From NCBI GenBank assembly GCA_026018925.1, contig JAKSZU010000166.1, forward strand, positions 186,001 through 250,000: DNA of 64,000 nt. The letters run 5' to 3'. Positions 612-27,021 of the stretch are shown piece by piece (within the stretch, counting starts at the first letter, position 1; every line of letters begins with the position of its first letter). The notes beneath the pieces are model-generated. The model ran no database searches and was not told where the DNA came from. It worked only from the letters and a program-made list of their open reading frames with translations. Both the position numbers and the translations under genes were made by a program. This DNA is from Tupaia tana (taxonomy: Eukaryota > Chordata > Mammalia > Scandentia > Tupaiidae).

Positions 612-612
612 T

Positions 613-680: not shown

Positions 681-3600
681 CTCCCTACCACACTAGCTTT
701 GCTTGCTGGAGGCTGAATTATGAGTCGAAAGTCTTCATTTCGCCTGTGCCCTTAAATGTCTAGTTCCCAGTATCCATGTGGAAACTTCTCAGAGAATGGC
801 TCAACTCTCCTGCCTGGGAGAAAGGAGCAGAAGGGCTTATTAACAAAACAAAAGATGGAGCTGAGAGCCAGAGAGAAATTCTACCTTTAAAAAAATCGTA
901 AAAAGGAAAAATTACCAAAAAAAATGAGGAGACAGGAGCAGAGAGAGACAGAGACCTGAGAAACACAGAGACAGGGATAGAAGGCCAGAGGGGCTCCCTA
1001 CCACACTAGCTTTGCTTGCTGGAGGCTGAATTATGAGTAGAAAATCTTCATTTCGCCTGTACCCTGAAATATCTAGTTCCCAGTATCCATGTGGAATCTT
1101 CTCAGAAATTGCTCAACTCTCCTGCCTCGGAGAAAGGAGCAGAAGGGCTTATTAACAAAACAAAAGATGGAGGCTGAGAGCCAGAGAGAAATTCTACCTT
1201 TAAAAAAATCGTAAAAAGGAAAAATTAACAAAAAAAATGAGGAGACAGGAGCAGAGAGACACAGAGACCTCAGAGACACAGAGACACGGATAGAAGCCAG
1301 AGGGGGTCCCTACCACACTAGCTTTGCATGCTGGAGGCTGAATTATCAGTAGAAAATCTTCATTTCGCCTGTGCCCTGAAATATCTAGTTCCCAGTATCC
1401 ATGTGGAAACTTCTCAGAGAATGGCTCAACTCTCCTGCCTGGGAGAAAGGAGCAGAAGGGCTTATTAACAAAACAAAAGATGGAGCTGATAGCCACAGAC
1501 AAATTCTACCTTTAAAAAATCGTAAAAAGGAAAATTACCAAAAAAAATGAGGATACAGGAGCAGAGAGAGACAGAGACCTCAGAGACACAGAGACAGGGA
1601 TAGAAGGCCAGAGGGGCTCCCTACCACACTAGCTTTGCTTGCTGGAGGCTGAATTATGAGTAGAAAATCTTCATTTCGCCTGTGCCCTGAAATATCTAGT
1701 TCCCAGTATCCATGTGGAATCTTCTCAGAAATGGCTCAACTCTCCTGCCTCGGAGAAAGGAGCAGAAGGGCTTATTAACAAAACAAAAGATGGAGCTGAG
1801 AGCCAGAGAGAAATTCTACCTTTAAAAACATCGTAAAAAGGAAAAATTACCAAAAAAAATGAGGAGACAGGAGCAGAGAGAACAGAGACTTCAGAGACAC
1901 AGAGACAGGGATAGAAGGCCAGAGGGGCTCCCTACCACACTAGCTTTGCTTGCTGGAGGCTGAATTATGAGTAGAAAATCTTCATTTCGCCTGTGCCCTG
2001 AAATATCTAGTTCCCAGTATCCATGTGGAATCTTCTCAGAGAATGGCTCAACTCTCCTGCCTGGGAGAAAGGAGCAGAAGGGCTTATTAACAAAACAAAA
2101 GATGGAGCTGAGAGCCAGAGAGAAATTCTACCTTTAAAAAAATCGTAAAAAGGAAAAATTAACAAAAAAAATGAGGAGACAGGAGCAGAGAGACACAGAG
2201 ACCTCAGAGACACAGAGACACGGATAGAAGCCAGAGGGGGTCCCTACCACACTAGCTTTGCATGCTGGAGGCTGAATTATCAGTAGAAAATCTTCATTTC
2301 GCTGTGCCCTGAAATATCTAGTTCCCAGTATCCATGTGGAATCTTCTCAGAGAATGGCTCAACTCTCCTGCCTGGGAGAAAGGAGCAGAAGGCTTTATTA
2401 ACAAAACAAAAGATGGAGCTGATAGCCACAGACAAATTCTACCTTTAAAAAAAATCGTAAAAAGGAAAAATTACCAAAAATTGAGGAGACAGGAGCAGAG
2501 AGAGACAGAGACCCTCAGAGACACAGAGACAGTGATAGAAGGCCAGAGGGGCTCCCTACCTCACTAGCTTTGCTTGCTGGAGGCTGAATAATGAGTAGAA
2601 AATCTTCATTTCGCCTGTGCCTGAAATATCTTGTTCCCAGTATCCTTGTGGAATCTTCTCAGAGAATGGCTCTACTCTCCTGCCTGGGAGAAAGGAGCAG
2701 AAGGGCTTATTAACAAAACAAAAGATGGAGCTGAGAGCCAGAGAGAAATTCTACCTTTAAAAAAATCGTAAAAAGGAAAAATTACCAAAAAAATGAGGAG
2801 ACAGGAGCAGAGAGAGACAGAGACCTCAGAGACACAGAGACAGGGATAGAAGGCCAGAGGAGCTCCCTACCACACTAGCTTTGCTTGCTGGAGGCTGAAT
2901 TATGAGTAGAAAATCTTCATTTCGCCTGTGCCCTGAAATATCTAGTTCCCAGTATCCATGTGGAATCTTCTCAGAGAATGGCTCAACTCTCCTGCCTGGG
3001 AGAAAGGAGCAGAAGGGCTTATTAACAAAACAAAAGATGGAGCTGAGAGCCAGAGAGAAATTCTACCTTTAAAAAAATCGTAAAAAGGAAAAATTACCAA
3101 AAAATGAGGAGATAGGAGCAGAGAGACACAGAGACCTCAGAGACACAGAGACAGGGATAGAAGGCCAGAGGGGCTCCCTACCACACTAGCTTTGCTTGCT
3201 GGAGGCTGAATTATGAGTAGAAAATCTTCATTTCGCCTGTGCCCTGAAATATCTAGTTCCCAGTATCCATGTGGAATCTTCTCAGAGAATGGCTCAACTC
3301 TCCTGCCTGGGAGAAAGGAGCAGAAGGGCTTATTAACAAAACAAAAGATGGAGCTGAGAGCCAGAGAGAAATTCTACCTTTAAAAAAATCGTAAAAAGGA
3401 AAAATTACCAAAAAAAGGAGGAGACAGGAGCAGAGAGACACAGAGACCTCAGAGACACAGAGACAGGGATAGAAGGCCAGAGGGGCTCCCTACCACACTA
3501 GCTTTGCTTGCTGGAGGCTGAATTATGAGTAGAAAATCTTCATTTCGCATGTGCCCTGAAATATCTAGTTCCCAGTATCCATGTGGAATCTTCTCAGAGA

Positions 3601-5078
3601 ATGGCTCAACTCTCCTGCCTGGGATAAAGGAGCAGAAGGGCTTATTAACAAAACAAAAGATGTAGCTGAGAGCCAGAGAGAAATTCTACCTTTAAAAAAA
3701 TCGTAAAAAGGAAAAATTACCAAAAAAAATGAGGAGACAGGAGCAGAGAGAACAGAGACCTCAGAGACACAGAGACAGTGATAGAAGGCCAGAGGGGCTC
3801 CCTACCTCACTAGCTTTGCTTGCTGAAGGCTGAATTATGAGTAGAAAATCTTCATTTCGCCTGTGCCCTGAAATATCTAGTTCCCAGTATCCATGTGGAA
3901 TCTTCTCAGAGAATGGCTCAACTCTCCTGCCTGGGAGAAAGGAGCAGAAGGGCTTATTAACAAAACAAAAGATGGAGCTGAGAGCCAGAGAGAAATTCTA
4001 CCTTTAAAAAAATCGAAAAAAAGGAAAAATTACCAAAAAAAATGAGGAGACAGGAGCTGAGAGAGACAGAGACCTCAGAGACACAGAGACAGGATAGAAG
4101 GCCAGAGGGGCTCCCTACCACACTAGCTTTGCTTGCTGGAGGCTGAATTATGAGTAGAAAATCTTCATTTCGCCTGTGCCCTGAAATATCTAGTTCCCAG
4201 TATCCATGTGGAATCTTCTCAGAGAATGGCTCAACTCTCCTGCCTGGGAGAAAGGAGCAGAAGGGCTTATTAACAAAACAAAAGATGGAGCTGAGAGCCA
4301 GAGAGAAATTCTACCTTTAAAAAAATCGTAAAAAGGAAAAATTACGAAAAAAATATGAGGAGACAGGAGCAGAGAGACACAGAGACCTCAGAGACACAGA
4401 GACAGGGATAGAAGGCCAGAGGGGCTCCCTACCACACTAGCTTTGCTTGCTGGAGGCTGAATTATGAGTAGAAAATCTTCATTTCGCCTGTGCCCTGAAA
4501 TATCTAGTTCCCAGTATCCATGTGGAAACTTCTCAGAGAATGGCTCAACTCTCCTGCCTGGGAGAAAGGAGCAGAAGGGCTTATTAACAAAACAAAAGAT
4601 GGAGCTGAGAGCCAGAGAGAAATTCTACCTTTAAAAAAATCGTAAAAAGGAAAAATTACCAAAAAAAATGAGGAGACAGGAGCAGAGAGAGACAGAGACC
4701 TCAGAGACACAGAGACAGGGATAGAAGGCCAGAGGGGCTCCCTACCACACTACCTTTGCTTGCTGGAGGCTGAATTATGAGTAGAAAATCTTCATTTCGC
4801 CTGTGCCCTGAAATATCTAGTTCCAGTATCCATGTGGAATCTTCTCAGAGAATGGCTCAACTCTCCTGCCTGGGAGAAAGGAGCAGAAGGGCTTATTAAC
4901 AAAACGAAAGATGGAGCTGAGAGCCAGAGAGAAATTCTACCTTTAAAAAAATCGTAAAAAAGGAAAAATTACCAAAAAAAAATGAGGAGACTGGAGCAGA
5001 GAGAGACAGAGACCTCAGAGACACAGAGACAGGGATAGAAGGCCAGAGGGGCTCCCTACCACACTAGCTTTGCTTGCT

Positions 5079-7272
5079 GGAGGCTGAATTATGAGTAGAA
5101 AATCTTCATTTCGCCTGTGCCCTGAAATATCTAGTTCCAGTATCCATGTGGAACCTTCTCAGAGAATGGCTCAACTCTCCTGCCTGGGAGAAAGGAGCAG
5201 AAGGGCTTATTAACAAAACAAAGATGGAGCTGAGAGCCAGAGAGAAATTCTACCTTTAAAAAAATCGTAAGAAGGAAAAAATACCAAAAAAAAATGAGGA
5301 GACAGGAGCAGAGAGACACAGAGACCTCAGAGACACAGAGACAGGAATAGAAGGCCAGAGGGGCTCCCTACCACACTAGCTTTGCTTGCTGGAGGCTGAA
5401 TTATGTGTAGAAAATCTTCATTTCGCCTGTGCCCTGAAATATCTAGTTCCCAGTATCCATGTGGAATCTTCTCAGAGAATGGCTCAACTCTCCTGCCTGG
5501 GAGAAAGGAGCAGAAGGGCTTATTAACAAAACAGAAGATGGAGCTGAGAGCCAGAGAGAAATTCTACCTTTAAAAAAATCGTAAAAAGAAAAAAATTACC
5601 AAAAAAAAATTAGGAGACAGGAGCAGAGAGAGACAGAGACCTCAGAGACACAGAGACACGGATAGAAGGCCAGAGGGGCTCCCTACCACACTAGCTTTGC
5701 TTGCTGGAGGCTGAATTATGAGTAGAAAATCTTCATTTCGCCTGTGCCCTGAAATATGTAGTTCCCCGGATCCATGTGGAATCTTCTCAGAGAATGGCTC
5801 AACTCTCCTGCCTGGGAGAAAGGAGCAGAAGGGCTTATTAACAAAACAAAAGATGAAGCTGAGAGCCAGAGAGAAATTCTACCTTTAAAAAAATCGTAAA
5901 AAGGAAAAATTAACAAAAAAAATGAGGAGACAGGAGCAGAGAGACACAGAGACCTCAGAGACACAGAGACAGGGATAGAGGGCCAGAGGGGCTCCCTACC
6001 ACACTAGCTTTGCTTGCTGGAGGCTGAATTATGAGTAGAAAATCTTCATTTCGCCTGTGCCCTGAAATGTCTAGTTCCCAGTATCCATGTGGAAACTTCT
6101 CAGAGAATGGCTCAACTCTCCTGCCTGGGAGAAAGGAGCAGAAGGGCTTATTAACAAAACAAAAGATGGAGCTGAGAGCCAGAGAGAAATTCTACCTTTA
6201 AAAAAATCGTAAAAAGGAAAAATTACCAAAAAAAATGAGGAGACAGGAGCAGAGAGAGACAGAGACCTCAGAGACACAGAGACAGGGATAGAAGGCCAGA
6301 GGGGCTCCCTACCACACTAGCTTTGATTGCTGGAGGCTGAATTATGAGTAGAAAATCTTCATTTCGCCTGTGCCCTTAAATGTCTAGTTCCCAGTATCCA
6401 TGTGGAAACTTCTCAGAGAATGGCTCAACTCTCCTGCCTGGGAGAAAGGAGAAGAAGGGCTTATTAACAAAACAAAATATGGAGCTGAGAGCCAGAGAGA
6501 AAATTCTACCTTTAAAAAAATCGTAAAAAGGAAAAATTACCAAAAAAAATGAGGAGACAGGAGCAGAGTGACACAGAGGCCTCAGAGACACAGAGACAGG
6601 GATAGAAGGCCAGAGGGGCTCCCTACCACACTAGCTTTGCTTGCTGGAGGCTGAATTATGAGTAGAAAATCTTCATTTCGCCTGTGCCCTGAAATATCTA
6701 GTTCCCAGTATCCATGTGGAATCTTCTCAGAGAATGGCTCAACTCTCCTGCCTGGAGAAAGGAGCAGAAGGGCTTATTAACAAAACGAAAGATGGAGCTG
6801 AGAGCCAGATAGAAATTCTACCTTTAAAAAAATTGTAAAAAGGAAAAATTACCCAAAAAAATGAGGAGACAGGAGCAGAGAGAGACAGAGACCTCAGAGA
6901 CACAGAGACAGGGGGTAGAAGGACAGAGGGGCTCCCTACCACACTAGCTTTGCTTGCTGGAGGCTGAATTATGAGTAGAAAATCTTCGTTTTGCCTGTGC
7001 CCTGAAATATCTAGTTCCCAGTATCCATGTGGAATCTTCTCAGAGAATGGCTCAACTCTCCTGCTTGGGAGAAAGGAGCAGAAGGGCTTATTAACAAAAT
7101 AAAAGATGGAGCTGAGAGCCAGAGAGAAATTCTACCTTTAAAAAAACCGTAAAAAGGAAAAATTACCAAAAAAATATGAGGAGACAGGAGCAGAGAGAGA
7201 CAGAGACCTCAGAGACACAGAGACAGGGATAGAAGGCCAGAGGGGCTCCCTACCACACTAGCTTTGCTTGCT
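5079..7272 (+). repeat. 7-monomer block 1 in HOR copy 1
   Basis: Seven monomers (2194 bp) opening with the CGTAAGAAGG monomer and then the TTATGTGTAG monomer. It continues with ATGTAGTTCCCCGGATCC (5756), a class-C monomer (TTTGATTGCTGG, 6322), the TTACCC / GGTAGAAGG monomer and the CTTCGTTTTGCC monomer (near 6985). Block-1 private variants are AGCCAGATAG (near 6802) and AGAAGGACAGAGG (near 6916). Both recur in block 1 of HOR copies 2 and 3. Confidence 0.88.
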
Positions 7273-9463
7273 GGAGGCTGAATTATGAGTAGAAAATCTT
7301 CATTTCGCCTGTGCCCTGAAATATCTAGTTCCCAGTATCCATGTGGAAACTTCTCAGAGAATGGCTCAACTCTCCTGCCTGGGAGAAAGGAGCAGAAGGG
7401 CTTATTAACAAACAAAAGATGGAGCTGAGAGCCAGAGAGAAATTCTACCTTTAAAAAAATCGTAAGAAGGAAAAAATACCAAAAAAAAAATGAGGAGACA
7501 GGAGCAGAGAGACACAGAGACCTCAGAGACACAGAGACAGGAATAGAAGGCCAGAGGGGCTCCCTACCACACTAGCTTTGCTTGCTGGAGGCTGAATTAT
7601 GTGTAGAAAATCTTCATTTCGCCTGTGCCCTGAAATATCTAGTTCCCAGTATCCATGTGGAATCTTCTCAGAGAATGGCTCAACTCTCCTGCCTGGGAGA
7701 AAGGAGCAGAAGGGCTTATTAACAAAACAGAAGATGGAGCTGAGAGCCAGAGAGAAATTCTACCTTTAAAAAAATCGTAAAAAGAAAAAAATTACCAAAA
7801 AAAATTAGGAGACAGGAGCAGAGAGAGACAGAGACCTCAGAGACACAGAGACACGGATAGAAGGCCAGAGGGGCTCCCTACCACACTAGCTTTGCTTGCT
7901 GGAGGCTGAATTATGAGTAGAAAATCTTCATTTCGCCTGTGCCCTGAAATATGTAGTTCCCCGGATCCATGTGGAATCTTCTCAGAGAATGGCTCAACTC
8001 TCCTGCCTGGGAGAAAGGAGCAGAAGGGCTTATTAACAAAACAAAAGATGAAGCTGAGAGCCAGAGAGAAATTCTACCTTTAAAAAAATCGTAAAAAGGA
8101 AAAATTACCAAAAAAAATGAGGAGACAGGAGCAGAGAGACACAGAGACCTCAGAGACACAGAGACAGGGATAGAGGGCCAGAGGGGCTCCCTACCACACT
8201 AGCTTTGCTTGCTGGAGGCTGAATTATGAGTAGAAAATCTTCATTTCGCCTGTGCCCTGAATGTCTAGTTCCCAGTATCCATGTGGAAACTTCTCAGAGA
8301 ATGGCTCAACTCTCCTGCCTGGGAGAAAGGAGCAGAAGGGCTTATTAACAAAACAAAAGATGGAGCTGAGAGCCAGAGAGAAATTCTACCTTTAAAAAAA
8401 TCGTAAAAAGGAAAAATTACCAAAAAAAATGAGGAGACAGGAGCAGAGAGAGACAGAGACCTCAGAGACACAGAGACAGGGATAGAAGGCCAGAGGGGCT
8501 CCCTACCACACTAGCTTTGATTGCTGGAGGCTGAATTATGAGTAGAAAATCTTCATTTCGCCTGTGCCCTTAATGTCTAGTTCCCAGTATCCATGTGGAA
8601 ACTTCTCAGAGAATGGCTCAACTCTCCTGTCTGGGAGAAAGGAGAAGAAGGGCTTATTAACAAAACAAAATATGGAGCTGAGAGCCAGAGAGAAATTCTA
8701 CCTTTAAAAAAATCGTAAAAAGGAAAAATTACCAAAAAAAATGAGGAGACAGGAGCAGAGTGACACAGAGGCCTCAGAGACACAGAGACAGGGATAGAAG
8801 GCCAGAGGGGCTCCCTACCACACTAGCTTTGCTTGCTGGAGGCTGAATTATGAGTAGAAAATCTTCATTTCGCCTGTGCCCTGAAATATCTAGTTCCCAG
8901 TATCCATGTGGAATCTTCTCAGAGAATGGCTCAACTCTCCTGCCTGGGAGAAAGGAGCGAAGGGCTTATTAACAAAACGAAAGATGGAGCTGAGAGCCAG
9001 AGAGAAATTCTACCTTTAAAAAAATTGTAAAAAGGAAAAATTACCCAAAAAAATGAGGAGACAGGAGCAGAGAGAGACAGAGACCTCAGAGACACAGAGA
9101 CAGGGGTAGAAGGCCAGAGGGGCTCCCTACCACACTAGCTTTGCTTGCTGGAGGCTGAATTATGAGTAGAAAATCTTCGTTTTGCCTGTGCCCTGAAATA
9201 TCTAGTTCCCAGTATCCATGTGGAATCTTCTCAGAGAATGGCTCAACTCTCCTGCTTGGGAGAAAGGAGCAGAAGGGCTTATTAACAAAATAAAAGATGG
9301 AGCTGAGAGCCAGAGAGAAATTCTACCTTTAAAAAAACCGTAAAAAGGAAAAATTACCAAAAAAATATGAGGAGACAGGAGCAGAGAGAGACAGAGACCT
9401 CAGAGACACAGAGACAGGGATAGAAGGCCAGAGGGGCTCCCTACCACACTAGCTTTGCTTGCT
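7273..9463 (+). repeat. 7-monomer block 2 in HOR copy 1
   Basis: Seven monomers (2191 bp) in the same order as block 1. Private block-2 variants are CTCCTGTCTGGG (near 8624) and AAAGGAGCGAAGG (near 8951). The next two monomers (9464-10092) repeat the first two positions of the block. The order then leaves the 7-mer at the GAGGAGAAAAT monomer, so a third block is truncated after two monomers. Confidence 0.88.
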
Positions 9464-12400
9464 GGAGGCTGAATTATGAGTAGAAAATCTTCATTTCGCC
9501 TGTGCCCTGAAATATCTAGTTCCCAGTATCCATGTGGAAACTTCTCAGAGAATGGCTCAACTCTCCTGCCTGGGAGAAAGGAGCAGAAGGGCTTATTAAC
9601 AAAACAAAAGATGGAGCTGAGAGCCAGAGAGAAATTCTACCTTTAAAAAAATCGTAAGAAGGAAAAAATACCAAAAAAAAATGAGGAGACAGGAGCAGAG
9701 AGACACAGAGACCTCAGAGACACAGAGACAGGAATAGAAGGCCAGAGGGGCTCCCTACCACACTAGCTTTGCTTGCTGGAGGCTGAATTATGTGTAGAAA
9801 ATCTTCATTTCGCCTGTGCCCTGAAATATCTAGTTCCCAGTATCCATGTGGAATCTTCTCAGAGAATGGCTCAACTCTCCTGCCTGGGAGAAAGGAGCAG
9901 AAGGGCTTATTAACAAAACAGAAGATGGAGCTGAGAGCCAGAGAGAAATTCTACCTTTAAAAAAATCGTAAAAAGAAAAAAATTACCAAAAAAAAATTAG
10001 GAGACAGGAGCAGAGAGAGACAGAGACCTCAGAGACACAGAGACACGGATAGAAGGCCAGAGGGGCTCCCTACCACACTAGCTTTGCTTGCTGGAGGCTG
10101 AATTATGAGGAGAAAATCTTAATTTCGCCTGTGCCCTTAAATGTCTAGTTCCCAGTATACATGTGGAATATTCTCAGGGAATGGCTCAACTCTCCTGCCT
10201 GGGAGAAAGGAGCAGAAGGCTTATTAACAAAACAAAAGATGGAGCTGAGAGCCAGAGAGAAATTCTACCTTTAAAAAAATCGTAAAAAGGAAAAATTACC
10301 AAAAAAATGAGGAGACAGGAGCAGAGAGAGACAGAGACCTCAGAGACACAGAGACAGTGATAGAAGGCCAGAGGGGCTCCCTACCACATTAGCTTGGCTT
10401 GCTGGAGGCTTAATTATGAGTAGAAAATCTTCATTTCGCCTGTGCCCTGAAATATCTAGTTCCCAGTATCCATGTGGAATCTTCTCAGAGAATGGCTCAA
10501 CTCTCCTGCCTGGGAGAAAGGAGCAGAAGGGCTTATTAACAAAACGAAAGATGGAGCTGAGAGCCAGAGAGAAATTCTACCTTTAAAAAAATCGTAAAAA
10601 GGAAAAATTACCAAAAAAGATGATGAGACAGGAGCAGAGAGAGACAGAGACCTCAGAGACACAGAGATAGGGATAGAAGGCCAGAGGGGCTCCCTACCAC
10701 ACTAGCTTTGCTTGCTGGAGGCTGAATTATGAGTAGAAAATCTTCATTTCGCCTGTGCCCTGAAATGTCTAGTTCCCAGTATCCATGTGGAAACTTCTCA
10801 GAGAATGGCTCAACTCTCCTGCCTGGGAGAAAGGAGCAGAAGGGCTTATTAACAAAACAAAAGATGGAGCTGAGAGCCAGAGAGAAATTCTACCTTTAAA
10901 AAAATCGTAAAAAGGAAAAATTACCAAAAAAAATGAGGAGACAGGAGCAGAGAGAGACAGAGGACCTCAGAGACACAGAGACAGGGATAGAAGGCCAGAG
11001 GGGCTCCCTACCACACTAGCTTTGATTGCTGGAGGCTGAATTATGAGTAGAAAATCTTCATTTCGCCTGTGCCCTTAAATGTCTAGTTCCCAGTATCCAT
11101 GCGGAAACTTCTCAGAGAATGGCTCAACTCTCCTGCCTGGGAGAAAGGAGAAGAAGGGCTTATTAACAAAACAAAATATGGAGCTGAGAGCCAGAGAGAA
11201 ATTCTACCTTTAAAAAAATCGTAAAAAGGAAAATTACCAAAAATAATGAGGAGACAGGAGCAGAGAGACACAGAGGCCTCAGAGACACAGAGACAGTGAT
11301 AGAAGGCCAGAGGGGCTCCCTACCACACTAGCTTTGCTTGCTGGAGGCTGAATTATGAGTAGAAAATCTTCATTTCGCCTGTGCCCTGAAATATCTAGTT
11401 CCCAGTATCCATGTGGAATCTTCTCAGAGATGGCTCAACTCTCCTGCCTGGGATAAAGGAGCAGAAGGGCTTATTAACAAAACGAAAGATGGAGCTGAGA
11501 GCCAGAGAGAAATTCTACCTTTAAAAAATCGTAAAAAGGAAAAATTACCAAAAAAAATGAGGAGACAGGAGCAGAGAGAACAGAGACCTCAGAGACACAG
11601 AGACAGTGATAGAAGGCCAGAGGGGCTCCCCTACCTCACTAGCTTTGCTTGCTGAAGGCTGAATTATGAGTAGAAAATCTTCATTTCGCCTGTGCCCTGA
11701 AATATCTAGTTCCCAGTATCCATGTGGAATCTTCTCAGAGAATGGCTCAACTCTCCTGCCTGGGAGAAAGGAGCAGAAGGGCTTATTAACAAAACAAAAG
11801 ATGGAGCTGAGAGCCAGAGAGAAATTCTACCTTTAAAAAAATCGAAAAAAGGAAAAATTACCAAAAAAAATGAGGAGACAGGAGCTGAGAGAGACAGAGA
11901 CCTCAGAGACACAGAGACAGAGATAGAAGGCCAGAGGGGCTCCCTACCACACTAGCTTTGCTTGCTGGAGGCTGAATTATGAGTAGAAAATCTTCATTTC
12001 GCCTGTGCCCTGAAATATCTAGTTCCCAGTATCCATGTGGAATCTTCTCAGAGAATGGCTCAACTCTCCTGCCTGGGAGAAAGGAGCAGAAGGGCTTATT
12101 AACAAAACAAAAGATGGAGCTGAGAGCCAGAGAGAAATTCTACCTTTAAAAAAATCGTAAAAAGGAAAAATTACGAAAAAAATATGAGGAGACAGGAGCA
12201 GAGAGACACAGAGACCTCAGAGACACAGAGACAGGGATAGAAGGCCAGAGGGGCTCCCTACCACACTAGCTTTGCTTGCTGGAGGCTGAATTATGAGTAG
12301 AAAATCTTCATTTCGCCTGTGCCCTGAAATATCTAGTTCCCAGTATCCATGTGGAAACTTCTCAGAGAATGGCTCAACTCTCCTGCCTGGGAGAAAGGAG

Positions 12401-12904
12401 CAGAAGGGCTTATTAACAAAACAAAAGATGGAGCTGAGAGCCAGAGAGAAATTCTACCTTTAAAAAAATCGTAAAAAGGAAAAATTACCAAAAAAAATGA
12501 GGAGACAGGAGCAGAGAGAGACAGAGACCTCAGAGACACAGAGACAGGATAGAAGGCCAGAGGGGCTCCCTACCACACTACCTTTGCTTGCTGGAGGCTG
12601 AATTATGAGTAGAAAATCTTCATTTCGCCTGTGCCCTGAAATATCTAGTTCCCAGTATCCATGTGGAATCTTCTCAGAGAATGGCTCAACTCTCCTGCCT
12701 GGGAGAAAGGAGCAGAAGGGCTTATTAACAAAACGAAAGATGGAGCTGAGAGCCCGAGAGAAATTCTACCTTTAAAAAAATCGTAAAAAGGAAAAATTAC
12801 CAAAAAAAAATGAGGAGACTGGAGCAGAGAGAGACAGAGACCTCAGAGACACAGAGACAGGATAGAAGGCCAGAGGGCTCCCTACCACACTAGCTTTGCT
12901 TGCT

Positions 12905-15099
12905 GGAGGCTGAATTATGAGTAGAAAATCTTCATTTCGCCTGTGCCCTGAAATATCTAGTTCCCAGTATCCATGTGGAACCTTCTCAGAGAATGGCTCA
13001 ACTCTCCTGCCTGGGAGAAAGGAGCAGAAGGGCTTATTAACAAAACAAAAGATGGAGCTGAGAGCCAGAGAGAAATTCTACCTTTAAAAAAATCGTAAGA
13101 AGGAAAAAATACCAAAAAAAAATGAGGAGACAGGAGGCAGAGAGACACAGAGACCTCAGAGACACAGAGACAGGAATAGAAGGCCAGAGGGGCTCCCTAC
13201 CACACTAGCTTTGCTTGCTGGAGGCTGAATTATGTGTAGAAAATCTTCATTTCGCCTGTGCCCTGAAATATCTAGTTCCCAGTATCCATGTGGAATCTTC
13301 TCAGAGAATGGCTCAACTCTCCTGCCTGGGAGAAAGGAGCAGAAGGGCTTATTAACAAAACAGAAGATGGAGCTGAGAGCCAGAGAGAAATTCTACCTTT
13401 AAAAAAATCGTAAAAGAAAAAAATTACCAAAAAAAAATTAGGAGACAGGAGCAGAGAGAGACAGAGACCTCAGAGACACAGAGGACACGGATAGAAGGCC
13501 AGAGGGGCTCCCTACCACACTAGCTTTGCTTGCTGGAGGCTGAATTATGAGTAGAAAATCTTCATTTCGCCTGTGCCCTGAAATATGTAGTTCCCCGGAT
13601 CCATGTGGAATCTTCTCAGAGAATGGCTCAACTCTCCTGCCTGGGAGAAAGGAGCAGAAGGGCTTATTAACAAAACAAAAGATGAAGCTGAGAGCCAGAG
13701 AGAAATTTACCTTTAAAAAAATCGTAAAAAGGAAAAATTACCAAAAAAAATGAGGAGACAGGAGCAGAGAGACACAGAGACCTCAGAGACACAGAGACAG
13801 GGATAGAGGGCCAGAGGGGCTCCCTACCACACTAGCTTTGCTTGCTGGAGGCTGAATTATGAGTAGAAAATCTTCATTTCGCCTGTGCCCTGAAATGTCT
13901 AGTTCCCAGTATCCATGTGGAAACTTCTCAGAGAATGGCTCAACTCTCCTGCCTGGGAGAAAGGAGCAGAAGGGCTTATTAACAAAACAAAAGATGGAGC
14001 TGAGAGCCAGAGAGAAATTCTACCTTTAAAAAAATCGTAAAAAGGAAAAATTACCAAAAAAAATGAGGAGACAGGAGCAGAGAGAGACAGAGACCTCAGA
14101 GACACAGAGACAGGGATAGAAGGCCAGAGGGGCTCCCTACCACACTAGCTTTGATTGCTGGAGGCTGAATTATGAGTAGAAAATCTTCATTTCGCCTGTG
14201 CCCTTAAATGTCTAGTTCCCAGTATCCATGTGGAAACTTCTCAGAGAATGGCTCAACTCTCCTGCCTGGGAGAAAGGAGAAGAAGGGCTTATTAACAAAA
14301 CAAAATATGGAGCTGAGAGCCAGAGAGAAATTCTACCTTTAAAAAAATCGTAAAAAGGAAAAATTACCAAAAAAAATGAGGAGACAGGAGCAGAGTGACA
14401 CAGAGGCCTCAGAGACACAGAGACAGGGATAGAAGGCCAGAGGGGCTCCCTACCACACTAGCTTTGCTTGCTGGAGGCTGAATTATGAGTAGAAAATCTT
14501 CATTTCGCCTGTGCCCTGAAATATCTAGTTCCCAGTATCCATGTGGAATCTTCTCAGAGAATGGCTCAACTCTCCTGCCTGGGAGAAAGGAGCAGAAGGG
14601 CTTATTAACAAAACGAAAGATGGAGCTGAGAGCCAGATAGAAATTCTACCTTTAAAAAAATTGTAAAAAGGAAAAATTACCCAAAAAAATGAGGAGACAG
14701 GAGCAGAGAGAGACAGAGACCTCAGAGACACAGAGACAGGGGTAGAAGGACAGAGGGGCTCCCTACCACACTAGCTTTGCTTGCTGGAGGCTGAATTATG
14801 AGTAGAAAATCTTCGTTTTGCCTGTGCCCTGAAATATCTAGTTCCCAGTATCCATGTGGAATCTTCTCAGAGAATGGCTCAACTCTCCTGCTTGGGAGAA
14901 AGGAGCAGAAGGGCTTATTAACAAAATAAAAGATGGAGCTGAGAGCCAGAGAGAAATTCTACCTTTAAAAAAACCGTAAAAAGGAAAAATTACCAAAAAA
15001 ATATGAGGAGACAGGAGCAGAGAGAGACAGAGACCTCAGAGACACAGAGACAGGGATAGAAGGCCAGAGGGGCTCCCTACCACACTAGCTTTGCTTGCT
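12905..15099 (+). repeat. 7-monomer block 1 in HOR copy 2
   Basis: Same seven-monomer order as the first block of copy 1. It carries the block-1 private variants AGCCAGATAG (near 14630) and AGAAGGACAGAGG (near 14745), and the CCCCGGATCC monomer at 13585. Confidence 0.88.
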
Positions 15100-17295
15100 G
15101 GAGGCTGAATTATGAGTAGAAAATCTTCATTTCGCCTGTGCCCTGAAATATCTAGTTCCCAGTATCCATGTGGAAACTTCTCAGAGAATGGCTCAACTCT
15201 CCTGCCTGGGAGAAAGGAGCAGAAGGGCTTATTAACAAAACAAAAGATGGAGCTGAGAGCCAGAGAGAAATTCTACCTTTAAAAAAATCGTAAGAAGGAA
15301 AAAATACCAAAAAAAAAATGAGGAGACAGGAGCAGAGAGACACAGAGACCTCAGAGACACAGAGACAGGAATAGAAGGCCAGAGGGGCTCCCTACCACAC
15401 TAGCTTTGCTTGCTGGAGGCTGAATTATGTGTAGAAAATCTTCATTTCGCCTGTGCCCTGAAATATCTAGTTCCCAGTATCCATGTGGAATCTTCTCAGA
15501 GAATGGCTCAACTCTCCTGCCTGGGAGAAAGGAGCAGAAGGGCTTATTAACAAAACAGAAGATGGAGCTGAGAGCCAGAGAGAAATTCTACCTTTAAAAA
15601 AATCGTAAAAAGAAAAAAATTACCAAAAAAAAATTAGGAGACAGGAGCAGAGAGAGACAGAGACCTCAGAGACACAGAGACACGGATAGAAGGCCAGAGG
15701 GGCTCCCTACCACACTAGCTTTGCTTGCTGGAGGCTGAATTATGAGTAGAAAATCTTCATTTCGCCTGTGCCCTGAAATATGTAGTTCCCCGGATCCATG
15801 TGGAATCTTCTCAGAGAATGGCTCAACTCTCCTGCCTGGGAGAAAGGAGCAGAAGGGCTTATTAACAAAACAAAAGATGAAGCTGAGAGCCAGAGAGAAA
15901 TTCTACCTTTAAAAAAATCGTAAAAAGGAAAAATTACCAAAAAAAATGAGGAGACAGGAGCAGAGAGACACAGAGACCTCAGAGACACAGAGACAGGGAT
16001 AGAGGGCCAGAGGGGCTCCCTACCACACTAGCTTTGCTTGCTGGAGGCTGAATTATGAGTAGAAAATCTTCATTTCGCCTGTGCCCTGAAATGTCTAGTT
16101 CCCAGTATCCATGTGGAAACTTCTCAGAGAATGGCTCAACTCTCCTGCCTGGGAGAAAGGAGCAGAAGGGCTTATTAACAAAACAAAAGATGGAGCTGAG
16201 AGCCAGAGAGAAATTCTACCTTTAAAAAAATCGTAAAAAGGAAAAATTACCAAAAAAAATGAGGAGACAGGAGCAGAGAGAGACAGAGACCTCAGAGACA
16301 CAGAGACAGGGATAGAAGGCCAGAGGGGCTCCCCTACCACACTAGCTTTGATTGCTGGAGGCTGAATTATGAGTAGAAAATCTTCATTTCGCCTGTGCCC
16401 TTAAATGTCTAGTTCCCAGTATCCATGTGGAAACTTCTCAGAGAATGGCTCAACTCTCCTGTCTGGGAGAAAGGAGAAGAAGGGCTTATTAACAAAACAA
16501 AATATGGAGCTGAGAGCCAGAGAGAAATTCTACCTTTAAAAAAATCGTAAAAAGGAAAAATTACCAAAAAAAATGAGGAGACAGGAGCAGAGTGACACAG
16601 AGGCCTCAGAGACACAGAGACAGGGATAGAAGGCCAGAGGGGCTCCCTACCACACTAGCTTTGCTTGCTGGAGGCTGAATTATGAGTAGAAAATCTTCAT
16701 TTCGCCTGTGCCCTGAAATATCTAGTTCCCAGTATCCATGTGGAATCTTCTCAGAGAATGGCTCAACTCTCCTGCCTGGGAGAAAGGAGCGAAGGGCTTA
16801 TTAACAAAACGAAAGATGGAGCTGAGAGCCAGAGAGAAATTCTACCTTTAAAAAAATTGTAAAAAGGAAAAATTACCCAAAAAAATGAGGAGACAGGAGC
16901 AGAGAGAGACAGAGACCTCAGAGACACAGAGACAGGGGTAGAAGGCCAGAGGGGCTCCCTACCACACTAGCTTTGCTTGCTGGAGGCTGAATTATGAGTA
17001 GAAAATCTTCGTTTTGCCTGTGCCCTGAAATATCTAGTTCCCAGTATCCATGTGGAATCTTCTCAGAGAATGGCTCAACTCTCCTGCTTGGGAGAAAGGA
17101 GCAGAAGGGCTTATTAACAAAATAAAAGATGGAGCTGAGAGCCAGAGAGAAATTCTACCTTTAAAAAAACCGTAAAAAGGAAAAATTACCAAAAAAATAT
17201 GAGGAGACAGGAGCAGAGAGAGACAGAGACCTCAGAGACACAGAGACAGGGATAGAAGGCCAGAGGGGCTCCCTACCACACTAGCTTTGCTTGCT
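15100..17295 (+). repeat. 7-monomer block 2 in HOR copy 2
   Basis: Second seven-monomer block of copy 2, with block-2 private variants CTCCTGTCTGGG (near 16454) and AAAGGAGCGAAGG (near 16782). A two-monomer fragment of a third block follows at 17296-17926. Confidence 0.88.
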
Positions 17296-20200
17296 GGAGG
17301 CTGAATTATGAGTAGAAAATCTTCATTTCGCCTGTGCCCTGAAATATCTAGTTCCCAGTATCCATGTGGAAACTTCTCAGAGAATGGCTCAACTCTCCTG
17401 CCTGGGAGAAAGGAGCAGAAGGGCTTATTAACAAAACAAAAGATGGAGCTGAGAGCCAGAGAGAAATTCTACCTTTAAAAAAATCGTAAGAAGGAAAAAA
17501 TACCAAAAAAAAAATGAGGGAGACAGGAGCAGAGAGACACAGAGACCTCAGAGACACAGAGACAGGAATAGAAGGCCAGAGGGGCTCCCTACCACACTAG
17601 CTTTGCTTGCTGGAGGCTGAATTATGTGTAGAAAATCTTCATTTCGCCTGTGCCCTGAAATATCTAGTTCCCAGTATCCATGTGGAATCTTCTCAGAGAA
17701 TGGCTCAACTCTCCTGCCTGGGAGAAAGGAGCAGAAGGGCTTATTAACAAAACAGAAGATGGAGCTGAGAGCCAGAGAGAAATTCTACCTTTAAAAAAAT
17801 CGTAAAAAGAAAAAAATTACCAAAAAAAAATTAGGAGACAGGAGCAGAGAGAGACAGAGACCTCAGAGACACAGAGACACGGATAGAAGGCCAGAGGGGC
17901 TCCCTACCACACTAGCTTTGCTTGCTGGAGGCTGAATTATGAGGAGAAAATCTTAATTTCGCCTGTGCCCTTAAATGTCTAGTTCCCAGTATACATGTGG
18001 AATATTCTCAGGGAATGGCTCAACTCTCCTGCCTGGGAGAAAGGAGCAGAAGGGCTTATTAACAAAACAAAAGATGGAGCTGAGAGCCAGAGAGAGAAAT
18101 TCTACCTTTAAAAAAATCGTAAAAAGGAAAAATTACCAAAAAAATGAGGAGACAGGAGCAGAGAGAGACAGAGACCTCAGAGACACAGAGACAGTGATAG
18201 AAGGCCAGAGGGGCTCCCTACCACATTAGCTTGGCTTGCTGGAGGCTTAATTATGAGTAGAAAATCTTCATTTCGCCTGTGCCCTGAAATATCTAGTTCC
18301 CAGTATCCATGTGGAATCTTCTCAGAGAATGGCTCAACTCTCCTGCCTGGGAGAAAGGAGCAGAAGGGCTTATTAACAAAACGAAAGATGGAGCTGAGAG
18401 CCAGAGAGAAATTCTACCTTTAAAAAAATCGTAAAAAGGAAAAATTACCAAAAAAGATGATGAGACAGGAGCAGAGAGAGACAGAGACCCTCAGAGACAC
18501 AGAGATAGGGATAGAAGGCCAGAGGGGCTCCCTACCACACTAGCTTTGCTTGCTGGAGGCTGAATTATGAGTAGAAAATCTTCATTTCGCCTGTGCCCTG
18601 AAATGTCTAGTTCCCAGTATCCATGTGGAAACTTCTCAGAGAATGGCTCAACTCTCCTGCCTGGGAGAAAGGAGCAGAAGGGCTTATTAACAAAACAAAA
18701 GATGGAGCTGAGAGCCAGAGAGAAATTCTACCTTTAAAAAAATCGTAAAAAGGAAAAATTACCAAAAAAATGAGGAGACAGGAGCAGAGAGAGACAGAGA
18801 CCTCAGAGACACAGAGACAGGGATAGAAGGCCAGAGGGGCTCCCTACCACACTAGCTTTGATTGCTGGAGGCTGAATTATGAGTAGAAAATCTTCATTTC
18901 GCCTGTGCCCTTAAATGTCTAGTTCCCAGTATCCATGCGGAAACTTCTCAGAGAATGGCTCAACTCTCCTGCCTGGGAGAAAGGAGAAGAAGGGCTTATT
19001 AACAAAACAAAATATGGAGCTGAGAGCCAGAGAGAAATTCTACCTTTAAAAAAATCGTAAAAAGGAAAAATTACCAAAAATAATGAGGAGACAGGAGCAG
19101 AGAGACACAGAGGCCTCAGAGACACAGAGACAGTGATAGAAGGCCAGAGGGGCTCCCTACCACACTAGCTTTGCTTGCTGGAGGCTGAATTATGAGTAGA
19201 AAATCTTCATTTCGCCTGTGCCCTGAAATATCTAGTTCCCAGTATCCATGTGGAATCTTCTCAGAGAATGGCTCAACTCTCCTGCCTGGGATAAAGGAGC
19301 AGAAGGGCTTATTAACAAAACGAAAGATGGAGCTGAGAGCCAGAGAGAAATTCTACCTTTAAAAAAATCGTAAAAAGGAAAAATTACCAAAAAAAATGAG
19401 GAGACAGGAGCAGAGAGAACAGAGACCTCAGAGACACAGAGACAGTGATAGAAGGCCAGAGGGGCTCCCTACCTCACTAGCTTTGCTTGCTGAAGGCTGA
19501 ATTATGAGTAGAAAATCTTCATTTCGCCTGTGCCCTGAAATATCTAGTTCCCAGTATCCATGTGGAATCTTCTCAGAGAATGGCTCAACTCTCCTGCCTG
19601 GGAGAAAGGAGCAGAAGGGCTTATTAACAAAACAAAAGATGGAGCTGAGAGCCAGAGAGAAATTCTACCTTTAAAAAAATCGAAAAAAGGAAAAATTACC
19701 AAAAAAAAATGAGGAGACAGGAGCTGAGAGAGACAGAGACCTCAGAGACACAGAGACAGAGATAGAAGGCCAGAGGGGCTCCCTACCACACTAGCTTTGC
19801 TTGCTGGAGGCTGAATTATGAGTAGAAAATCTTCATTTCGCCTGTGCCCTGAAATATCTAGTTCCCAGTATCCATGTGGAATCTTCTCAGAGAATGGCTC
19901 AACTCTCCTGCCTGGGAGAAAGGAGCAGAAGGGCTTATTAACAAAACAAAAGATGGAGCTGAGAGCCAGAGAGAAATTCTACCTTTAAAAAAATCGTAAA
20001 AAGGAAAAATTACGAAAAAAATATGAGGAGACAGGAGCAGAGAGACACAGAGACCTCAGAGACACAGAGACAGGGATAGAAGGCCAGAGGGGCTCCCTAC
20101 CACACTAGCTTTGCTTGCTGGAGGCTGAATTATGAGTAGAAAATCTTCATTTCGCCTGTGCCCTGAAATATCTAGTTCCCAGTATCCATGTGGAAACTTC

Positions 20201-20745
20201 TCAGAGAATGGCTCAACTCTCCTGCCTGGGAGAAAGGAGCAGAAGGGCTTATTAACAAAACAAAAGATGGAGCTGAGAGCCAGAGAGAAATTCTACCTTT
20301 AAAAAAATCGTAAAAAGGAAAAATTACCAAAAAAAATGAGGAGACAGGAGCAGAGAGAGACAGAGACCTCAGAGACACAGAGACAGGGATAGAAGGCCAG
20401 AGGGGCTCCCTACCACACTACCTTTGCTTGCTGGAGGCTGAATTATGAGTAGAAAATCTTCATTTCGCCTGTGCCCTGAAATATCTAGTTCCCAGTATCC
20501 ATGTGGAATCTTCTCAGAGAATGGCTCAACTCTCCTGCCTGGGAGAAAGGAGCAGAAGGGCTTATTAACAAAACGAAAGATGGAGCTGAGAGCCCGAGAG
20601 AAATTCTACCTTTAAAAAAATCGTAAAAAGGAAAAATTACCAAAAAAAAATGAGGAGACTGGAGCAGAGAGAGACAGAGACCTCAGAGACACAGAGACAG
20701 GGATAGAAGGCCAGAGGGCTCCCTACCACACTAGCTTTGCTTGCT

Positions 20746-22940
20746 GGAGGCTGAATTATGAGTAGAAAATCTTCATTTCGCCTGTGCCCTGAAATATCTA
20801 GTTCCCAGTATCCATGTGGAACCTTCTCAGAGAATGGCTCAACTCTCCTGCCTGGGAGAAAGGAGCAGAAGGGCTTATTAACAAAACAAAAGATGGAGCT
20901 GAGAGCCAGAGAGAAATTCTACCTTTAAAAAAATCGTAAGAAGGAAAAAATACCAAAAAAAAATGAGGAGACAGGAGCAGAGAGACACAGAGACCTCAGA
21001 GACACAGAGACAGGAATAGAAGGCCAGAGGGGCTCCCTACCACACTAGCTTTGCTTGCTGGAGGCTGAATTATGTGTAGAAAATCTTCATTTCGCCTGTG
21101 CCCTGAAATATCTAGTTCCCAGTATCCATGTGGAATCTTCTCAGAGAATGGCTCAACTCTCCTGCCTGGGAGAAAGGAGCAGAAGGGCTTATTAACAAAA
21201 CAGAAGATGGAGCTGAGAGCCAGAGAGAAATTCTACCTTTAAAAAAATCGTAAAAAGAAAAAAATTACCAAAAAAAAATTAGGAGACAGGAGCAGAGAGA
21301 GACAGAGACCTCAGAGACACAGAGACACGGATAGAAGGCCAGAGGGGCTCCCTACCACACTAGCTTTGCTTGCTGGAGGCTGAATTATGAGTAGAAAATC
21401 TTCATTTCGCCTGTGCCCTGAAATATGTAGTTCCCCGGATCCATGTGGAATCTTCTCAGAGAATGGCTCAACTCTCCTGCCTGGGAGAAAGGAGCAGAAG
21501 GGCTTATTAACAAAACAAAAGATGAAGCTGAGAGCCAGAGAGAAATTCTACCTTTAAAAAAATCGTAAAAAGGAAAAATTACCAAAAAAAATGAGGAGAC
21601 AGGAGCAGAGAGACACAGAGACCTCAGAGACACAGAGACAGGGATAGAGGGCCAGAGGGGCTCCCTACCACACTAGCTTTGCTTGCTGGAGGCTGAATTA
21701 TGAGTAGAAAATCTTCATTTCGCCTGTGCCCTGAAATGTCTAGTTCCCAGTATCCATGTGGAAACTTCTCAGAGAATGGCTCAACTCTCCTGCCTGGGAG
21801 AAAGGAGCAGAAGGGCTTATTAACAAAACAAAAGATGGAGCTGAGAGCCAGAGAGAAATTCTACCTTTAAAAAAATCGTAAAAAGGAAAAATTACCAAAA
21901 AAAATGAGGAGACAGGAGCAGAGAGAGACAGAGACCTCAGAGACACAGAGACAGGGATAGAAGGCCAGAGGGGCTCCCTACCACACTAGCTTTGATTGCT
22001 GGAGGCTGAATTATGAGTAGAAAATCTTCATTTCGCCTGTGCCCTTAAATGTCTAGTTCCCAGTATCCATGTGGAAACTTCTCAGAGAATGGCTCAACTC
22101 TCCTGCCTGGGAGAAAGGAGAAGAAGGGCTTATTAACAAAACAAAATATGGAGCTGAGAGCCAGAGAGAAATTCTACCTTTAAAAAAATCGTAAAAAGGA
22201 AAAATTACCAAAAAAAATGAGGAGACAGGAGCAGAGTGACACAGAGGCCTCAGAGACACAGAGACAGGGATAGAAGGCCAGAGGGGCTCCCTACCACACT
22301 AGCTTTGCTTGCTGGAGGCTGAATTATGAGTAGAAAATCTTCATTTCGCCTGTGCCCTGAAATATCTAGTTCCCAGTATCCATGTGGAATCTTCTCAGAG
22401 AATGGCTCAACTCTCCTGCCTGGGAGAAAGGAGCAGAAGGGCTTATTAACAAAACGAAAGATGGAGCTGAGAGCCAGATAGAAATTCTACCTTTAAAAAA
22501 ATTGTAAAAAGGAAAAATTACCCAAAAAAATGAGGAGACAGGAGCAGAGAGAGACAGAGACCTCAGAGACACAGAGACAGGGGTAGAAGGACAGAGGGGC
22601 TCCCTACCACACTAGCTTTGCTTGCTGGAGGCTGAATTATGAGTAGAAAATCTTCGTTTTGCCTGTGCCCTGAAATATCTAGTTCCCAGTATCCATGTGG
22701 AATCTTCTCAGAGAATGGCTCAACTCTCCTGCTTGGGAGAAAGGAGCAGAAGGGCTTATTAACAAAATAAAAGATGGAGCTGAGAGCCAGAGAGAAATTC
22801 TACCTTTAAAAAAACCGTAAAAAGGAAAAATTACCAAAAAAATATGAGGAGACAGGAGCAGAGAGAGACAGAGACCTCAGAGACACAGAGACAGGGATAG
22901 AAGGCCAGAGGGGCTCCCTACCACACTAGCTTTGCTTGCT
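20746..22940 (+). repeat. 7-monomer block 1 in HOR copy 3
   Basis: Same order, with block-1 private variants AGCCAGATAG (near 22471) and AGAAGGACAGAGG (near 22585). Confidence 0.88.
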
Positions 22941-25137
22941 GGAGGCTGAATTATGAGTAGAAAATCTTCATTTCGCCTGTGCCCTGAAATATCTAGTTCC
23001 CAGTATCCATGTGGAAACTTCTCAGAGAATGGCTCAACTCTCCTGCCTGGGAGAAAGGAGCAGAAGGGCTTATTAACAAAACAAAAGATGGAGCTGAGAG
23101 CCAGAGAGAAATTCTACCTTTAAAAAAATCGTAAGAAGGAAAAAAATACCAAAAAAAAAATGAGGAGACAGGAGCAGAGAGACACAGAGACCTCAGAGAC
23201 ACAGAGACAGGAATAGAAGGCCAGAGGGGCTCCCTACCACACTAGCTTTGCTTGCTGGAGGCTGAATTATGTGTAGAAAATCTTCATTTCGCCTGTGCCC
23301 TGAAATATCTAGTTCCCAGTATCCATGTGGAATCTTCTCAGAGAATGGCTCAACTCTCCTGCCTGGGAGAAAGGAGCAGAAGGGCTTATTAACAAAACAG
23401 AAGATGGAGCTGAGAGCCAGAGAGAAATTCTACCTTTAAAAAAATCGTAAAAAGAAAAAAAATTACCAAAAAAAAATTAGGAGACAGGAGCAGAGAGAGA
23501 CAGAGACCTCAGAGACACAGAGACACGGATAGAAGGCCAGAGGGGCTCCCTACCACACTAGCTTTGCTTGCTGGAGGCTGAATTATGAGTAGAAAATCTT
23601 CATTTCGCCTGTGCCCTGAAATATGTAGTTCCCGGATCCATGTGGAATCTTCTCAGAGAATGGCTCAACTCTCCTGCCTGGGAGAAAGGAGCAGAAGGGC
23701 TTATTAACAAAACAAAAGATGAAGCTGAGAGCCAGAGAGAAATTCTACCTTTAAAAAAATCGTAAAAAGGAAAAATTACCAAAAAAAATGAGGAGACAGG
23801 AGCAGAGAGACACAGAGACCTCAGAGACACAGAGACAGGGATAGAGGGCCAGAGGGGCTCCCTACCACACTAGCTTTGCTTGCTGGAGGCTGAATTATGA
23901 GTAGAAAATCTTCATTTCGCCTGTGCCCTGAAATGTCTAGTTCCCAGTATCCATGTGGAAACTTCTCAGAGAATGGCTCAACTCTCCTGCCTGGGAGAAA
24001 GGAGCAGAAGGGCTTATTAACAAAACAAAAGATGGAGCTGAGAGCCAGAGAGAAATTCTACCTTTAAAAAAATCGTAAAAAGGAAAAATTACCAAAAAAA
24101 ATGAGGAGACAGGAGCAGAGAGAGACAGAGACCTCAGAGACACAGAGACAGGGATAGAAGGCCAGAGGGGCTCCCTACCACACTAGCTTTGATTGCTGGA
24201 GGCTGAATTATGAGTAGAAAATCTTCATTTCGCCTGTGCCCTTAAATGTCTAGTTCCCAGTATCCATGTGGAAACTTCTCAGAGAATGGCTCAACTCTCC
24301 TGTCTGGGAGAAAGGAGAAGAAGGGCTTATTAACAAAACAAAATATGGAGCTGAGAGCCAGAGAGAAATTCTACCTTTAAAAAAATCGTAAAAAGGAAAA
24401 ATTACCAAAAAAAATGAGGAGACAGGAGCAGAGTGACACAGAGGCCTCAGAGACACAGAGACAGGGATAGAAGGCCAGAGGGGCTCCCTACCACACTAGC
24501 TTTGCTTGCTGGAGGCTGAATTATGAGTAGAAAATCTTCATTTCGCCTGTGCCCTGAAATATCTAGTTCCCAGTATCCATGTGGAATCTTCTCAGAGAAT
24601 GGCTCAACTCTCCTGCCTGGGAGAAAGGAGCGAAGGGCTTATTAACAAAACGAAAGATGGAGCTGAGAGCCAGAGAGAAATTCTACCTTTAAAAAAATTG
24701 TAAAAAGGAAAAATTACCCAAAAAAATGAGGAGACAGGAGCAGAGAGAGACAGAGACCTCAGAGACACAGAGACAGGGGTAGAAGGCCAGAGGGGCTCCC
24801 TACCACACTAGCTTTGCTTGCTGGAGGCTGAATTATGAGTAGAAAATCTTCGTTTTGCCTGTGCCCTGAAATATCTAGTTCCCAGTATCCATGTGGAATC
24901 TTCTCAGAGAATGGCTCAACTCTCCTGCTTGGGAGAAAGGAGCAGAAGGGCTTATTAACAAAATAAAAGATGGAGCTGAGAGCCAGAGAGAAATTCTACC
25001 TTTAAAAAAACCGTAAAAAGGAAAAATTACCAAAAAAATATGAGGAGACAGGAGCAGAGAGAGACAGAGACCTCAGAGACACAGAGACAGGGATAGAAGG
25101 CCAGAGGGGCTTCCCTACCACACTAGCTTTGCTTGCT
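22941..25137 (+). repeat. 7-monomer block 2 in HOR copy 3
   Basis: Same order, with block-2 private variants CTCCTGTCTGGG (near 24295) and AAAGGAGCGAAGG (near 24625). The CCCCGGATCC site has lost one C here (CCCGGATCC near 23631). The two-monomer third-block fragment follows at 25138-25766. Confidence 0.88.
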
Positions 25138-27021
25138 GGAGGCTGAATTATGAGTAGAAAATCTTCATTTCGCCTGTGCCCTGAAATATCTAGTTCCCAG
25201 TATCCATGTGGAAACTTCTCAGAGAATGGCTCAACTCTCCTGCCTGGGAGAAAGGAGCAGAAGGGCTTATTAACAAAACAAAAGATGGAGCTGAGAGCCA
25301 GAGAGAAATTCTACCTTTAAAAAAATCGTAAGAAGGAAAAAATACCAAAAAAAAATGAGGAGACAGGAGCAGAGAGACACAGAGACCTCAGAGACACAGA
25401 GACAGGAATAGAAGGCCAGAGGGGCTCCCTACCACACTAGCTTTGCTTGCTGGAGGCTGAATTATGTGTAGAAAATCTTCATTTCGCCTGTGCCCTGAAA
25501 TATCTAGTTCCCAGTATCCATGTGGAATCTTCTCAGAGAATGGCTCAACTCTCCTGCCTGGGAGAAAGGAGCAGAAGGGCTTATTAACAAAACAGAAGAT
25601 GGAGCTGAGAGCCAGAGAGAAATTCTACCTTTAAAAAAATCGTAAAAAGAAAAAAATTACCAAAAAAAAATTAGGAGACAGGAGCAGAGAGAGACAGAGA
25701 CCTCAGAGACACAGAGACACGGATAGAAGGCCAGAGGGGCTCCCTACCACACTAGCTTTGCTTGCTGGAGGCTGAATTATGAGGAGAAAATCTTAATTTC
25801 GCCTGTGCCCTTAAATGTCTAGTTCCCAGTATACATGTGGAATATTCTCAGGGAATGGCTCAACTCTCCTGCCTGGGAGAAAGGAGCAGAAGGGCTTATT
25901 AACAAAACAAAAGATGGAGCTGAGAGCCAGAGAGAAATTCTACCTTTAAAAAAATCGTTAAAAAGGAAAAATTACCAAAAAAAATGAGGAGACAGGAGCA
26001 GAGAGAGACAGAGACCTCAGAGACACAGAGACAGTGATAGAAGGCCAGAGGGGCTCCCTACCACATTAGCTTGGCTTGCTGGAGGCTTAATTATGAGTAG
26101 AAAATCTTCATTTCGCCTGTGCCCTGAAATATCTAGTTCCCAGTATCCATGTGGAATCTTCTCAGAGAATGGCTCAACTCTCCTGCCTGGGAGAAAGGAG
26201 CAGAAGGGCTTATTAACAAAACGAAAGATGGAGCTGAGAGCCAGAGAGAAATTCTACCTTTAAAAAAATCGTAAAAAAGGAAAAATTACCAAAAAGATGA
26301 TGAGACAGGAGCAGAGAGAGACAGAGACCTCAGAGACACAGAGATAGGGATAGAAGGCCAGAGGGGCTCCCTACCACACTAGCTTTGCTTGCTGGAGGCT
26401 GAATTATGAGTAGAAAATCTTCATTTCGCCTGTGCCCTGAAATGTCTAGTTCCCAGTATCCATGTGGAAACTTCTCAGAGAATGGCTCAACTCTCCTGCC
26501 TGGGAGAAAGGAGCAGAAGGGCTTATTAACAAAACAAAAGATGGAGCTGAGAGCCAGAGAGAAATTCTACCTTTAAAAAAATCGTAAAAAGGAAAAATTA
26601 CCAAAAAAAATGAGGAGACAGGAGCAGAGAGAGACAGAGACCTCAGAGACACAGAGACAGGGATAGAAGGCCAGAGGGGGCTCCCTACCACACTAGCTTT
26701 GATTGCTGGAGGCTGAATTATGAGTAGAAAATCTTCATTTCGCCTGTGCCCTTAAATGTCTAGTTCCCAGTATCCATGCGGAAACTTCTCAGAGAATGGC
26801 CTCAACTCTCCTGCCTGGGAGAAAGGAGAAGAAGGGCTTATTAACAAAACAAAATATGGAGCTGAGAGCCAGAGAGAAATTCTACCTTTAAAAAAATCGT
26901 AAAAAGGAAAAATTACCAAAAATAATGAGGAGACAGGAGCAGAGAGACACAGAGGCCTCAGAGACACAGAGACAGTGATAGAAGGCCAGAGGGGCTCCCT
27001 ACCACACTAGCTTTGCTTGCT

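Follow-up and report, generated by a model that had tools for sequence, protein, structure and literature searches.

The DNA analysed here (the window) is a 64,000-nucleotide stretch of Tupaia tana, positions 186001-250000 of a 425,188-bp contig (C271) in an assembly of 2.95 Gb and 1198 contigs, and the element in question is a block of 25 satellite monomers that is present in three successive copies. Tandem Repeats Finder reported the whole window as a single period-313 array, within which two 33-base period-8 rows sit, and the monomers were delimited by wrap-around alignment to the iterated 313-bp consensus. Globin exons located in the assembly by a family search read as mammalian, and probably placental; solved structures were consistent with a mammal without singling out a species (3fh9 was the best single match for beta globin), and the alpha-globin exon may resemble that of a tree shrew (Tupaia).

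1-64000, + strand: uninterrupted 313-bp satellite array in a single orientation, 204 full and two partial monomers (Tandem Repeats Finder, wrap-around alignment)

Over all pairs of window monomers the mean difference was 11.14, and arbitrary monomers were ~96.4% identical. No Rfam family matched window positions 1-10000, the part searched, at E 0.1 or better, and the 313-bp consensus contained no perfect hairpin with arms of at least 6 and loops of 3-24 bases.

Monomers 12-86 (3484-26992) form three successive copies of a 25-monomer, ~7.83-kb block, which are listed here together with two short sequences that mark them.

3484-11313, + strand: 25-monomer block, copy 1, monomers 12-36 (lag-25 comparison, copy alignment)
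11314-19150, + strand: 25-monomer block, copy 2, monomers 37-61 (lag-25 comparison, copy alignment)
19151-26992, + strand: 25-monomer block, copy 3, monomers 62-86 (lag-25 comparison, copy alignment)
3621-3630, + strand: marker GGGATAAAGG in copy 1, also at 11450 and 19288 (sequence match)
10384-10423, + strand: block-specific 40-mer (assembly pattern search; contig positions 196384, 204221 and 212061)

Among lags of 1-159 monomers, lag 25 gave the lowest mean difference (8.47). The 50 consecutive pairs obtained by comparing monomers 12-61 with monomers 37-86 differed by 1.38 on average and by 5 at most. When substitutions only were scored, the run comprised 51 pairs with a score of 190, because the first 140 positions of monomer 87 are free of mismatches to monomer 62, and 60 shuffles of the monomer order produced no run that reached score 12. 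Beyond monomer 86, the match of copy 3 may continue for as many as about 140 bases of monomer 87. Whole-copy identity was 99.48% between copies 1 and 2, 99.64% between copies 2 and 3 and 99.55% between copies 1 and 3; within one block copy the monomers differed by 11.2 per 313 on average, indels included, and adjacent ones by 11.5. The block-specific 40-mer had three matches in the entire assembly, one per block copy, and is thus confined to the block.

These results agree with the initial annotation, which had described a 25-monomer block of ~7.83 kb in three copies and had taken as support copies more than 97-98% identical with neighbours clearly less so, where we found 99.48-99.64% as against ~96.4% for arbitrary monomers. 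The bounds it gave, 3513..27021, enclose the same 75 monomers in a different monomer phase, and the two markers it listed, GGGATAAAGG at 3621/11450/19288 and GAGGAGAAAAT at 10107/17941/25781, were found at exactly those positions and at no others.

Each 25-monomer block itself contains a 7-monomer tandem duplication, arranged as 7 + 7 + 2 monomers, and a separate duplication lies further along the window.

5050-10063, + strand: nested 7-monomer duplication in copy 1, parts 5050-7243, 7244-9434 and 9435-10063 (lag comparison, copy alignment)
12876-17897, + strand: nested 7-monomer duplication in copy 2 (lag comparison)
20717-25737, + strand: nested 7-monomer duplication in copy 3 (lag comparison)
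39842-50168, + strand: separate 17-monomer near-tandem duplication with 16 monomer pairs, 39842-44849 versus 45163-50168 (lag comparison)

Scored on the majority sequence of the three blocks, the nine monomer pairs at lag 7 (block monomers 6-14 and 13-21) showed 4 substitutions in total. With these 4 substitutions between its inner copies, the 7-monomer duplication predates the 25-monomer duplication. It also explains why TTATGTGTAG repeats within each block: this sequence occurs 17 times on the + strand, and 9 of the occurrences form the three triplets offset by 7828-7842 that had been noted earlier. The pairs of the 17-monomer duplication differed by 2.38 on average, with one pair at 13 and the last three pairs at 4-6.

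The satellite extends through the parts of the contig that were sampled. All 17 further C271 stretches (165,188 bases in total) were 313-bp satellite in the orientation of the window; coverage was full in 12 of the 13 stretches tested and 99.9% in the remaining one, and the inner monomers of the 17 stretches were all 306-321 bp long, except one of 303 bp. An additional 5-kb stretch was entirely covered by satellite, and both contig ends (first and last 1.2 kb) were satellite as well. With the window included, about 234 kb of the 425 kb of C271 were seen, in which monomers averaged 9.5 substitutions apart (about 3%), and the contig probably represents part of a longer satellite array.

Duplicated runs were surveyed on this contig by substitutions only, and a run was called tandem when its length was at least the lag minus one. 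In an unbroken 104 kb that includes the window (331 monomers), 30 duplicated runs were found, with lags of 4 to 75 monomers, and an unbroken 45 kb at the end of the contig (143 monomers) had 11, with lags of 5 to 65, while 60 shuffles per stretch gave zero runs. The monomers inside duplicated runs numbered 219/331 and 90/143, respectively. The runs called tandem had lags of 25, 7, 5 and 4 around the window and of 24, 8 and 5 at the contig end; all others were displaced copies. Many lags repeat the same events; lags 18, 32, 43, 50 and 57 derive from 25 and 7.

A 25-monomer higher-order repeat (HOR) that organises the whole array, and of which the window would show a fragment only, would account for a copy-to-copy identity that far exceeds the identity between monomers. 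We rejected it as extremely unlikely: the 25-monomer period is limited to three copies, with both of its ends inside the window, none of the 41 runs listed connects the block to any sampled stretch outside it, and the block-specific 40-mer, which alone also covers the parts of C271 beyond the sampled stretches, has only its 3 matches in 2.95 Gb of assembled sequence. The three-copy limit, the private 40-mer and the other lags in the contig together show that the 25-monomer block is not the unit organising the array. The term HOR in the initial annotation can therefore be kept in an operational sense, given below, but not in the sense of an array-organising unit, since the period ends after three copies, the 40-mer is private and other lags occur nearby. 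Within the window the block may fairly be called the main structural result, although events of this kind are common in C271.

A comparable case is a 24-monomer tandem pair at C271:400824-415520, in which 23/24 monomers match with 0.26 substitutions each and which contains a nested 8-monomer duplication, a design that resembles the 25/7 block. A stricter likeness between 7 + 7 + 2 and 8 + 8 + 2 monomers was considered and withdrawn, as the 8-monomer duplication has a poorly defined end, which falls after 8 to 10 pairs according to the limit chosen. The occurrence at two places of a 7-8-monomer duplication nested in a 24-25-monomer one is the least ordinary feature, and two cases cannot establish a rule. 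It seems improbable that these two largest tandem blocks found on C271 share one coupled mechanism, for example template switching that recurred within a region during break-induced replication, instead of having arisen by unequal exchanges independent of each other.

The three block copies were then distinguished by their differences. There were nine substitution-type sites. At 7 of them copy 1 stands against copies 2 and 3, and the remaining two form an AG/GA swap of neighbouring bases next to an indel in copy 2, for which the best reading is that copy 2 has one A fewer. No secure substitution thus separates copies 2 and 3. Indels were found at 43 sites, where the odd copy was copy 1, 2 or 3 in 17, 15 and 11 cases, and 15 of the 43 sites touch homopolymers of four or more. 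Copy 1 was set apart by 7/7 substitutions and by 17/43 indels (Fisher p = 0.003; p = 0.06 when the AG/GA swap is counted as two substitutions). Descent predicts the same split for both types of change, and the indels do not show the split of the substitutions; most indels between copies are therefore probably assembly (sequencing) errors, at about 0.2% per base. Once indels are discounted as errors, copies 2 and 3 are practically identical. Copy 1 differs by 7 substitutions in about 7,832 bases, or 0.09%, and at about 2 x 10^-9 neutral substitutions per site and year in mammals its split would date very roughly to the order of 0.2 million years ago. As a separate observation on the assembly, indel sites (43) exceed substitution sites (7-9) in near-identical copies, which suggests a residual indel error.

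That noisy long reads were misjoined and so multiplied one or two true copies would fit both the lack of secure substitutions between copies 2 and 3 and indels between copies that resemble errors. We regard such an artefact as unlikely, since 7 substitutions mark copy 1, which makes two or more copies appear distinct, indels distinguish copy 2 from copy 3, so that these are not one sequence pasted twice, and duplicated runs with other lags recur in C271. The near identity of copies 2 and 3, together with the presence of the block in whole-number tandem copies, would also be expected if a 7.8-kb satellite circle had been excised, replicated as a rolling circle and reinserted. Copy 1 is unlike copies 2 and 3, however, which favours stepwise events over a single burst, and the rolling circle is in our view very unlikely.

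The satellite is abundant in the assembly. One satellite 37-mer had 95,138 forward and 101,789 reverse exact matches (196,927 in total). Across 229,188 bases of C271 it occurred 477 times, and about 65% of the monomers carried it; on the assumption that it is equally frequent in other arrays, this extrapolates to about 300,000 monomers, 94 Mb and 3.2% of the assembly. On a 112.95-Mb contig (C264), the satellite was present in 7/12 800-base samples taken between 59.0 and 62.0 Mb, namely those at 60.0-60.8 Mb, and the five samples outside that interval and both contig ends were not satellite. Another contig, C220, had satellite in its first 800 bases and none in its last 800, and five other contig ends sampled (both of C231, both of C275 and one of C864) were not satellite. 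At the points sampled, this placement, internal on a 113-Mb contig and at the start of another, suits a centromere, and by its position the 313-bp satellite is possibly centromeric.

At four monomer positions (63, 70, 104 and 290), a 10-kb stretch of the internal array (C264:60484001-60494000, 31 monomers) was nearly fixed for letters other than those of C271. The C264 monomers averaged 14.2 substitutions from C271 monomers, compared to 9.5 within C271 and 12.3 within the C264 stretch. The array-specific letters and the between-array distances show that the two arrays were homogenised apart. Two variant forms of the satellite were also seen. At C7:14400-15400 a 134-bp unit, ~95% identical to roughly positions 3-137 of the 313-bp monomer, is itself repeated in tandem and represents a truncated monomer that was re-amplified; at C9:200-1300 the satellite has a spacing of about 308-311 bp and represents a shorter subfamily.

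Stepwise in-register duplication of multi-monomer blocks, by unequal exchange or replication restart, is the explanation that we consider likely. An array of a 313-bp, possibly centromeric satellite would be renewed in this way. First, a tandem duplication of 7 monomers would have arisen within a stretch; a second duplication, of the 25 monomers (7.83 kb) around it, would have produced copy 1 along with a common ancestor of the other two copies; and a third event would have duplicated this ancestor again. Each step may have been an unequal sister-chromatid exchange or break-induced replication that restarted out of register in the same array. The blocks keep whole-monomer register throughout, and we infer the molecular mechanism as well as the event order that is read from the split of copy 1 from copies 2 and 3. 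The 25-monomer block would then be a recent, apparently private three-copy duplication among others of different sizes, one instance of an already known kind of event and mostly ordinary satellite turnover.

Several observations weigh against this explanation or parts of it. The 7 + 7 + 2 layout of the nested duplication is not produced by one unequal exchange, and more than one simple exchange must therefore have been involved. As no secure substitution separates copies 2 and 3, one copy may have been added by a join made during assembly. Of the 41 runs listed, four connect C271 stretches 325-361 kb apart over 7-14 monomers with 2.6-3.5 differences per monomer (C271:5099-9482 with 330022-334405, and C271:55586-59346 with 417078-420209, 390171-392362 and 393931-396124), so exchange is not confined to neighbours and long-distance copying also occurs. 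A 50-mer marker from the block matched once in copy 1 and also twice in C264. A kinship of the block with C264, as this marker might suggest, was rejected and the matches were read as coincidence, as the C264 monomers that carry the marker are 12-13 substitutions from the first monomer of the block. The centromeric role is a possibility argued from position. The CENP-B box has the core NTTCGNNNNANNCGGGN, and this core was absent from both strands of the window at up to one mismatch of its nine fixed bases; six window sites have two mismatches to it.

No publication describing the 313-bp satellite family was found, as judged by titles and abstract openings. Multi-monomer units, as seen here, occur in centromere-candidate tandem repeats of animals and plants in the parts of Melters et al. 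2013 (PMC4053949) that bear on HORs, and 'Tupaia', 'tree shrew' and '313' do not occur in the main text of that paper. By extrapolation the satellite family makes up about 3% of the assembly, and provided that it is confirmed it could be used to mark centromeres.

The chromosome-specific HORs of human alpha satellite are similar to the present case in that block copies are more alike than the monomers within a block and in that arrays carry their own variants, here C271 versus C264. In contrast to human alpha satellite, the block of Tupaia tana is present in three copies only, at one spot in the assembly, no CENP-B box was found in the window, and the monomers are about 3% apart, whereas those of classical alpha-satellite HORs are 20-40% apart. 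Thus, neither a unit iterated through the array (three copies, 3 matches of the 40-mer) nor strongly diverged monomers within the unit (11.2 per 313) were found, and we regard the block as a stochastic segmental duplication and not as a canonical alpha-satellite-type HOR.

To our knowledge, the CEN178 arrays of Arabidopsis have no one fixed unit. The present satellite is mammalian, with a 313-bp monomer, and its possible centromeric role is suggested by position. In the part of PMC10199239 that sets out the TRASH definition, two blocks count as an HOR when each has 3 or more monomers and corresponding monomers show 5 differences at most; by our own alignment, not by TRASH itself, the 50 consecutive lag-25 pairs with at most 5 differences each form an HOR of this kind. 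For a homogeneous satellite, the same part of that source takes HORs to be paired duplications of several monomers, found without sorting the monomers into classes, and the array studied here has the same character: a mammalian, possibly centromeric satellite, renewed by fresh multi-monomer duplications of several sizes without a fixed higher-order unit, in which the duplications can be ordered in time relative to each other.

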